A program made the position numbers and the translations under genes. A stretch of DNA of 64,000 nucleotides, from the NCBI GenBank assembly GCA_938743325.2, contig OW568884.1, forward strand, positions 558,001 to 622,000. Direction: 5' to 3'. The DNA comes from Pycnococcus provasolii. Lineage: Eukaryota; Chlorophyta; Pseudoscourfieldiophyceae; Pseudoscourfieldiales; Pycnococcaceae. Shown one piece after another: positions 53,166 to 53,240 of the stretch; the first letter of the stretch is position 1, and each line of letters begins with the position of its first letter. The notes below the pieces were generated by a model. The model ran no database searches and had not been told where the DNA came from. It saw only the letters and a list, made by a program, of their open reading frames with translations.

Positions 53166-53240
53166 ATGGTACGCACCGTGCAGACGGCGCGCAAGTCCAC
53201 AGGGGGAAAGGCGCCATCCAAGCTTGCACTCAACGCCGCG
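53166..53240 (+). other. Histone H3 tail-like N-terminus (candidate histone mimic)
   Basis: After the initiator Met the protein reads [18 protein letters not shown]; histone H3 reads [18 protein letters not shown]. That is 15 of 18 identical, with A1V, K4V and R17S changes. Weaker similarity continues for about seven residues (LALNAAK against QLATKAAR). R2, T3, R8, K9, S10, T11, K14 and K18 keep the H3 numbering; K4 is lost, and the K27-equivalent position is Asn. Val after Met allows Met removal, so the mature N-terminus could be exposed like that of H3. Confidence 0.85.

Follow-up and report, generated by a model that had tools for sequence, protein, structure and literature searches.

An H3-like N-terminal tail on an SMCHD1/GMI1-type ATPase of the green alga Pycnococcus provasolii

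We analysed a window of 64,000 nucleotides from a contig of the green alga Pycnococcus provasolii, the features of which are collected in Table 1. The gene that concerns us here is a single unbroken frame, opening with the ATG at 53166 and closing with a stop codon that ends at 61802. Its divergent neighbor encodes an SBDS-family protein with ~220 residues beyond the two Pfam domains, and 244 bases separate the two start codons. A run of 20 C with one T (53075-53095), 70 bases upstream of the ATPase start codon, likely belongs to the promoter or 5' UTR. Farther away, an IDM1-like gene of a plant-type family, which we take to be a family of H3 acetyltransferases, lies ~47 kb from the ATPase gene. 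The two axonemal dynein frames are 64 bases apart, a gap that may be an intron, and the first of them matches the 8glv chain, presumably the Chlamydomonas protein, with 3486 bits as compared to about 2670 bits for vertebrate DNAH6. Both this dynein match and the presence of the IDM1-like gene accord with a green-algal origin of the DNA. The window also contains a retroelement remnant, which we assume to be copia-like, and a frame without a Pfam family close to its end.

Table 1. Features of the window, with coordinates counted from its first nucleotide.
Feature	Coordinates	Strand	Basis
IDM1-like protein (IDM1_C, PHD finger, Tify-domain-binding domain)	4303-5970	-	Pfam
DNAH6-type axonemal dynein heavy chain, two frames	11619-21293 and 21358-24459	+	sequence match
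Retroelement remnant, retroviral polymerase SH3-like domain, 639-residue frame	42499-44418	+	Pfam
SBDS-family protein, divergent neighbor	51734-52921	-	Pfam
Whole frame, SMCHD1/GMI1-type ATPase, 2878 aa	53166-61802	+	ORF translation
Start Met and H3-tail-like residues 1-18, 15/18 identical to H3	53166-53222	+	alignment to H3
Twelve consecutive identical residues, H3 Q5-P16, with K9, S10 and K14 equivalents	53181-53216	+	alignment
Basic N-terminal tail, residues 1-50: 15 K/R, no D/E	53166-53315	+	composition
Acidic stretch 3' of basic tail	53337-53438	+	composition
Possible SMCHD1-type ubiquitin-like domain	53880-54047	+	by eye and position; low-confidence structure model
GHKL ATPase core	54192-54392	+	Pfam, human SMCHD1 match, motifs
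Motif I, ELVDNA	54204-54221	+	GHKL motif inspection
DNGCGM	54333-54350	+	GHKL motif inspection
GVGSK motif, 3' of ATPase core	within 54585-54605	+	GHKL motif inspection
SMCHD1_S5 transducer domain	55227-55814	+	Pfam PF22899, E 1.2e-27
Acidic stretch of transducer, 7 D/E and no K/R in 19 residues	55350-55406	+	composition, human SMCHD1 alignment
SMC-hinge-like region	60630-60914	+	Pfam E 0.098, below cut-off; surroundings weakly match Arabidopsis DMS3
618-residue frame rich in F/P/G motifs, no Pfam family	62011-63867	-	Pfam; frame open upstream to window end

Judged by its sequence, the product is an SMCHD1/GMI1-type ATPase, as the initial annotation of this DNA had claimed. The transducer family SMCHD1_S5 (PF22899) scores 97.3 bits at residues 688-883 against a cut-off of 27, and the ATPase/transducer region finds human SMCHD1 (6mw7) in a search of PDB sequences with E 1.4e-38. 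Moreover, the GHKL ATPase motifs are all present, namely motif I with its E and N, DNGxGM (as DNGCGM) and GxGxK (as GVGSK), and the GHKL ATPase family HATPase_c_3 is matched at residues 343-409 with 24.9 bits, just below its cut-off of 25. In the C-terminal part of the protein, a sub-threshold SMC_hinge match (residues 2489-2583) is accompanied by a weak match to Arabidopsis DMS3 (E 0.0096, phmmer against PDB sequences). The putative ubiquitin-like domain resembles the SMCHD1 sequence when compared by eye, and its single-sequence model has a pLDDT of 44; structure prediction without relatives is uninformative (mean pLDDT 32). The frame has no match in NCBIfam. A BAH-like domain 3' of the transducer, considered as a reader of the tail in cis, is unsupported by Pfam or the PDB sequence search. 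SMCHD1 of animals and GMI1 of Arabidopsis have the ATPase/transducer in common with the window protein, which, unlike them, begins with a copy of the histone H3 tail and an N-terminal extension of ~200-240 residues, mostly of low-order composition. The structured module of human SMCHD1 is reported to start near residue 25.

Numbering the residue after Met as 1, as is done for H3, the tail reads V1, R2, T3, V4, Q5, T6, A7, R8, K9, S10, T11, G12, G13, K14, A15, P16, S17, K18. It is identical to H3 at 15 of 18 positions under the same numbering, with 12 identities in a row from Q5 to P16, so that an H3K9-like context equal to H3 residues 5-16 is present in a non-histone protein. The departures from H3 fall at positions 1, 4 and 17, and the K27 region is gone. 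Both of the earlier observations on this segment, namely that 15 of its first 18 residues match H3 in register and that the K9/S10/K14 context is kept while K4 is lost (V4 stands in its place), are reproduced by our alignment. The further claim of similarity out to about residue 25 is not convincing: only 1 of the 30 residues that follow position 18 equals H3 under the same numbering, and gapped comparisons of residues 19-54 give shuffle p values that vary with the gap cost between 0.016 and 0.13, from two incompatible alignments. A second, degenerate copy of the tail at about residues 28-40 (H3 numbering) was likewise not convincing in the gapped alignments. Residues 51-100 contain 19 D/E and 1 K/R. 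Local alignment of the ATPase protein to H3 stops within the tail, and there is no histone family among the five Pfam matches at E <=1 that would indicate a histone fold after it.

Chance is excluded as the origin of the 15/18 match. The BLOSUM62 local score of the tail against H3 is 90, whereas shuffling the first 60 residues 20,000 times gave scores with a mean of 31, an SD of 5.5 and a maximum of 68. Among the 127,894 six-frame 18-mers of the window, the runner-up has 8 identities to H3 1-18, and the number of 15/18 matches expected among them is 8e-8 at a per-position rate of 0.10 and 3e-5 at 0.15. When the first 50 residues are compared with the PDB, 132 sequences are found at E <=10, and the 60 of these 132 matches listed comprise H3 itself, variants of the H3-like or centromeric kind, and H3 peptides. 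In 257 Gb of prokaryote assemblies, a pattern covering all codons for the 12-residue core has 6 occurrences; it has none in the IMG/VR viral contigs, where a shorter core pattern also gave no stretch. All six occurrences (L001-L006) share one 21-residue start, and five continue with the H3 histone fold, which in L001 and L004 can be followed up to an apparent intron; in L005 the H3 tail is cut by the contig end after its first 36 residues. These loci, H3 genes or the starts of such genes, are eukaryotic and evidently contaminate assemblies labeled as bacterial (TMED88, with two loci, a GMC4 bin, Rubrivirga, Flavobacteriales and Synechococcus CPC35).

The most likely source of the tail is the copied 5' end of an H3 gene, which is the most economical way to obtain such a match in register with Met. 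Descent from an H3 5' end had been put forward in the initial annotation, and it stands on this argument, whereas the extended similarity also adduced for it is unconvincing. An assembly join with a real H3 gene, the danger to that reading named at the time, is unlikely because the segment differs from H3 at positions 1, 4 and 17 and, under the same numbering, almost throughout after 18, and because the rest of the window contains only isolated four-residue matches to H3 motifs. At the codons of the 15 shared residues, 8 of 15 are the same as in L006, the closest H3 locus, and 3 or 4 of 15 are the same as in the other five loci; the copy was therefore not pasted from those genes, which belong to other species. 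The codons of the tail are a mixture of common and rare ones.

The coding signal begins about the ATG at 53166. In a codon model built from ten other frames of the window, residues 1-98 score +25 bits in frame and the 162 bases upstream score -26. Taken alone, the tail gives a modest signal, with +6.7 for residues 1-25 and +5.8 for residues 1-50, so that residues 51-98 supply much of the total. The sequence around the start codon is a poor context, with T at both -3 and -1, although G at +4 is favorable; of the 14 other starts listed, 8 carry a purine at -3 and 11 carry C at -1. The first ATG met on going upstream, at 52946, lies in a different frame and begins an open stretch of 33 codons. 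That the match to H3 begins exactly at the Met at 53166 is itself an argument for that start.

Perhaps the tail is a neutral relic, that is, a recent capture of an H3 5' end, possibly together with its start codon, with no role beyond giving the gene a start. Such a history would account for the loss of K4 and R17 and of almost all same-numbered identities after position 18, and for a GC3 of 0.79 in the first 19 codons as compared to 0.62 for the whole gene, as a recent foreign segment could show. In addition, the tail is known from one genome, and on residues 1-18 the mismatches are not significantly concentrated outside the core (p 0.10). With a hand alignment the p value is 0.07 on residues 1-25 and 0.006 on residues 1-40, and because the last of these depends on a gapped alignment made by hand, the data give at best a hint of purifying selection on the core. 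Against a relic stands the fact that 12 residues are unchanged while the residues on either side, and many synonymous positions, are not those of the six H3 loci, a weak argument because these loci come from other species. On balance, we regard a neutral relic as decidedly unlikely.

Searches for relatives of the protein were made in the same collections. In IMG/VR, the ATPase region matched 5 stretches and the whole protein 34, none of which was confirmed as a relative. In the bacterial bins holding the H3 loci, the ATPase region was found in 0 of 5 genomes and PF22899 in 0 of 5; these searches took five of the six loci, L004 being left out as a contig from the same bin as L001. Such blanks say little, because the ATPase search had no positive control and the PF22899 family cut-off was reached in 0 of 14 control genomes.

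The reading that we prefer, and that we hold tentatively as one that may well be correct without yet being probable, is that the tail serves as a K9/K14 handle by which the writers, readers and erasers of H3K9 would act on an SMCHD1/GMI1-type ATPase. The H3 block from Q5 to P16 is the range used for writing, reading and erasing at K9, for phosphorylation of S10 and for acetylation of K14. The pattern of the tail appears to fit this role, since the K9/K14 core is intact, and A1, K4, R17, the K27 region and nearly all same-numbered residues from 19 onward are lost. About 18 residues of an H3 5' end would have been placed at the start of a GHKL ATPase of this type, and removal of Met, which is expected before Val, would expose an H3-like tail whose K9/S10/K14 recognition context is complete. 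The tail could then be acted on in trans by the enzymes and readers of H3 K9 and K14; a methylated K9 equivalent would serve for docking, and a phosphate on S10 or an acetyl group on K14 would act as a switch. As a result, loading of the ATPase at silent chromatin might be tied to local H3K9 activity, and loss of K4 would place the tail outside H3K4 signaling.

Support for a K9/K14 handle is provided by the length, identity and register of the match and by the fact that, in the collections scanned, the core is restricted to the starts of H3 sequences. Moreover, the family is tied to H3K9me3 chromatin in mammals, although mouse SMCHD1 reaches H3K9me3 indirectly via LRIF1/HP1 and the hinge region, not through its N-terminus (PMC4628070). 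In Chlamydomonas, a SUVH-type H3K9 mono-methyltransferase, SET3p, is required for silencing transgene repeat arrays, and H3K9me3 is detectable (PMC8566409); chromomethylases bind H3K9me2 in plants and are known from a few green algae (PMC5410703). Because SUVH-type H3K9 methylation is reported in Chlamydomonas and chromomethylases in a few green algae, a K9 handle is plausible in a green alga, and SUVH and chromomethylase-like proteins are likelier partners there than HP1. The HP1 link drawn in the initial annotation therefore transfers poorly; the core of that interpretation, an SMCHD1-family ATPase with a true copy of the H3 tail, remains. Weighing against a handle, besides the hinge-mediated route in mouse, are the insignificant clustering of mismatches on residues 1-18, the poor start context, and the prospect that the tail serves import alone or is a recent neutral capture.

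Three further explanations, none of which had been raised in the initial annotation, also fit the data. To our knowledge, SMCHD1 relatives enter the nucleus without an H3 tail, which we count against the first of them: that the captured tail is a histone-type nuclear localization signal for an importin of the Kap123 kind, the K9 context being kept incidentally. Kap123 reads H3 1-28 via K14 and K23, with a consensus of a small residue, K and a small residue, then at least 6 residues and a K (PMC5677370). This consensus can be found in the tail as G13-K14-A15 followed by K25, K29 and K32, and the basic composition of the first 50 residues agrees with such a function. Import, however, needs only K14 and a later Lys, and so leaves the intact Q5-S10 unexplained; we consider it unlikely as the main role of the tail.

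The hydrophobic residue at position 4 suggests a second alternative, in which the tail would enter the cleft of an LSD1/LSD2-type enzyme as a pseudosubstrate, as SNAG domains do, and either recruit or block it. Like the window tail, H3K4M peptides consist of H3 1-20 with a hydrophobic residue in place of K4, and two of them (4hsu and 4gu0) are its two best matches in the PDB; these H3 peptides, together with 5x60 and 5h6q, which are also matched, are presumably KDM1-family ligands. Their lead over ordinary H3 is slight, however (26.7 and 25.7 bits as opposed to 25.3, a margin of 0.4-1.4 bits), and they are reagents with Met at position 4, whereas the window tail is natural and has Val, which is shorter. 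In SNAG domains, position 4 is not lysine, as in the window tail, and most residues differ from H3. The SNAG consensus, with an N-terminal Pro-Arg and an aromatic residue 4, is absent from V1-R2-T3-V4, and residues 7-16 resemble H3 more closely than docking of the SNAG kind would demand. The SNAG domains of SNAI1, GFI1 and SCRT1 imitate the H3 tail at the N-terminus, as the window tail does, and occupy the LSD1 cleft, showing that such imitation can hold LSD1 (PMC5896174; PMC12612597). The window tail is nearly H3 itself through P16 and starts with Val rather than Pro, and a P2A substitution abolishes binding of GFI1 to LSD1 (PMC5896174). LSD1-type docking thus strikes us as distinctly improbable.

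A third alternative places the function in cis: the basic tail would be tethered in an anionic cavity of the dimerized ATPase/transducer, from which nucleosomal H3 tails, or modification of K9 or K14, would displace it. In human SMCHD1, loops that carry seven acidic residues lie beside the cavity of the dimer, which was proposed to suit a positively charged polypeptide (PMC6620310). The window protein has its acidic transducer stretch near the place of the human acidic loop, and a separate acidic stretch comes right after the basic tail. Only 3 of the 7 acidic residues, however, fall in the unaligned loop proper, the first 4 being in a stretch that aligns to human SMCHD1, and ~190 residues lie between the basic tail and the possible ubiquitin-like domain. 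The poor structure models and the fact that no client is identified here or in the publications examined also count against this idea, and a tethered tail does not require the exact H3 sequence. A cis client is, in our estimation, very improbable on its own.

Among the closest known mimics are substrates of EHMT1/2 (G9a). The automethylation site of G9a is H3K9-like. WIZ and LIG1 likewise carry, in a non-histone protein, an H3K9-like motif open to use by H3K9 enzymes, these mimics being short motifs studied as 10-residue segments (PMC10611923), in contrast to a tail that matches H3 at 15 of 18 positions at a true N-terminus with H3 numbering. Our search of open-licence literature, which covered titles and the beginnings of abstracts and is not proof of absence, found no H3-tail copy on an SMCHD1/GMI1 protein; the portions of SMCHD1/GMI1 publications examined make no mention of an H3-like tail, and a literature search on chromatin gene fusions found no paper. 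Most of the histone mimics that we know of consist of a short motif carried by a cellular, viral or pathogen protein. There are precedents for each element, whether histone mimicry, an SMCHD1 protein or imitation of H3 at the N-terminus, and their combination at the present fidelity appears to be new.

Taken further, the preferred K9/K14 handle could be joined to a role in cis. The ATPase would then carry a self-fused H3 tail that is open to the same writers, readers and erasers as a nucleosome at K9, K14 and S10, is blind to K4, and also rivals nucleosomal H3 tails in cis for the acidic client cavity, coupling the state of heterochromatin to clamp loading. We regard this larger scheme as unlikely. 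A near-complete, correctly numbered H3 tail on a chromosomal ATPase would demonstrate that a transplanted tail can connect other chromatin machines to the enzymes of the histone code. It would also suggest a client for the acidic cavity of SMCHD1, and would offer a natural tail, lacking K4 with K9 intact, for separating recognition of H3K4 from that of H3K9.
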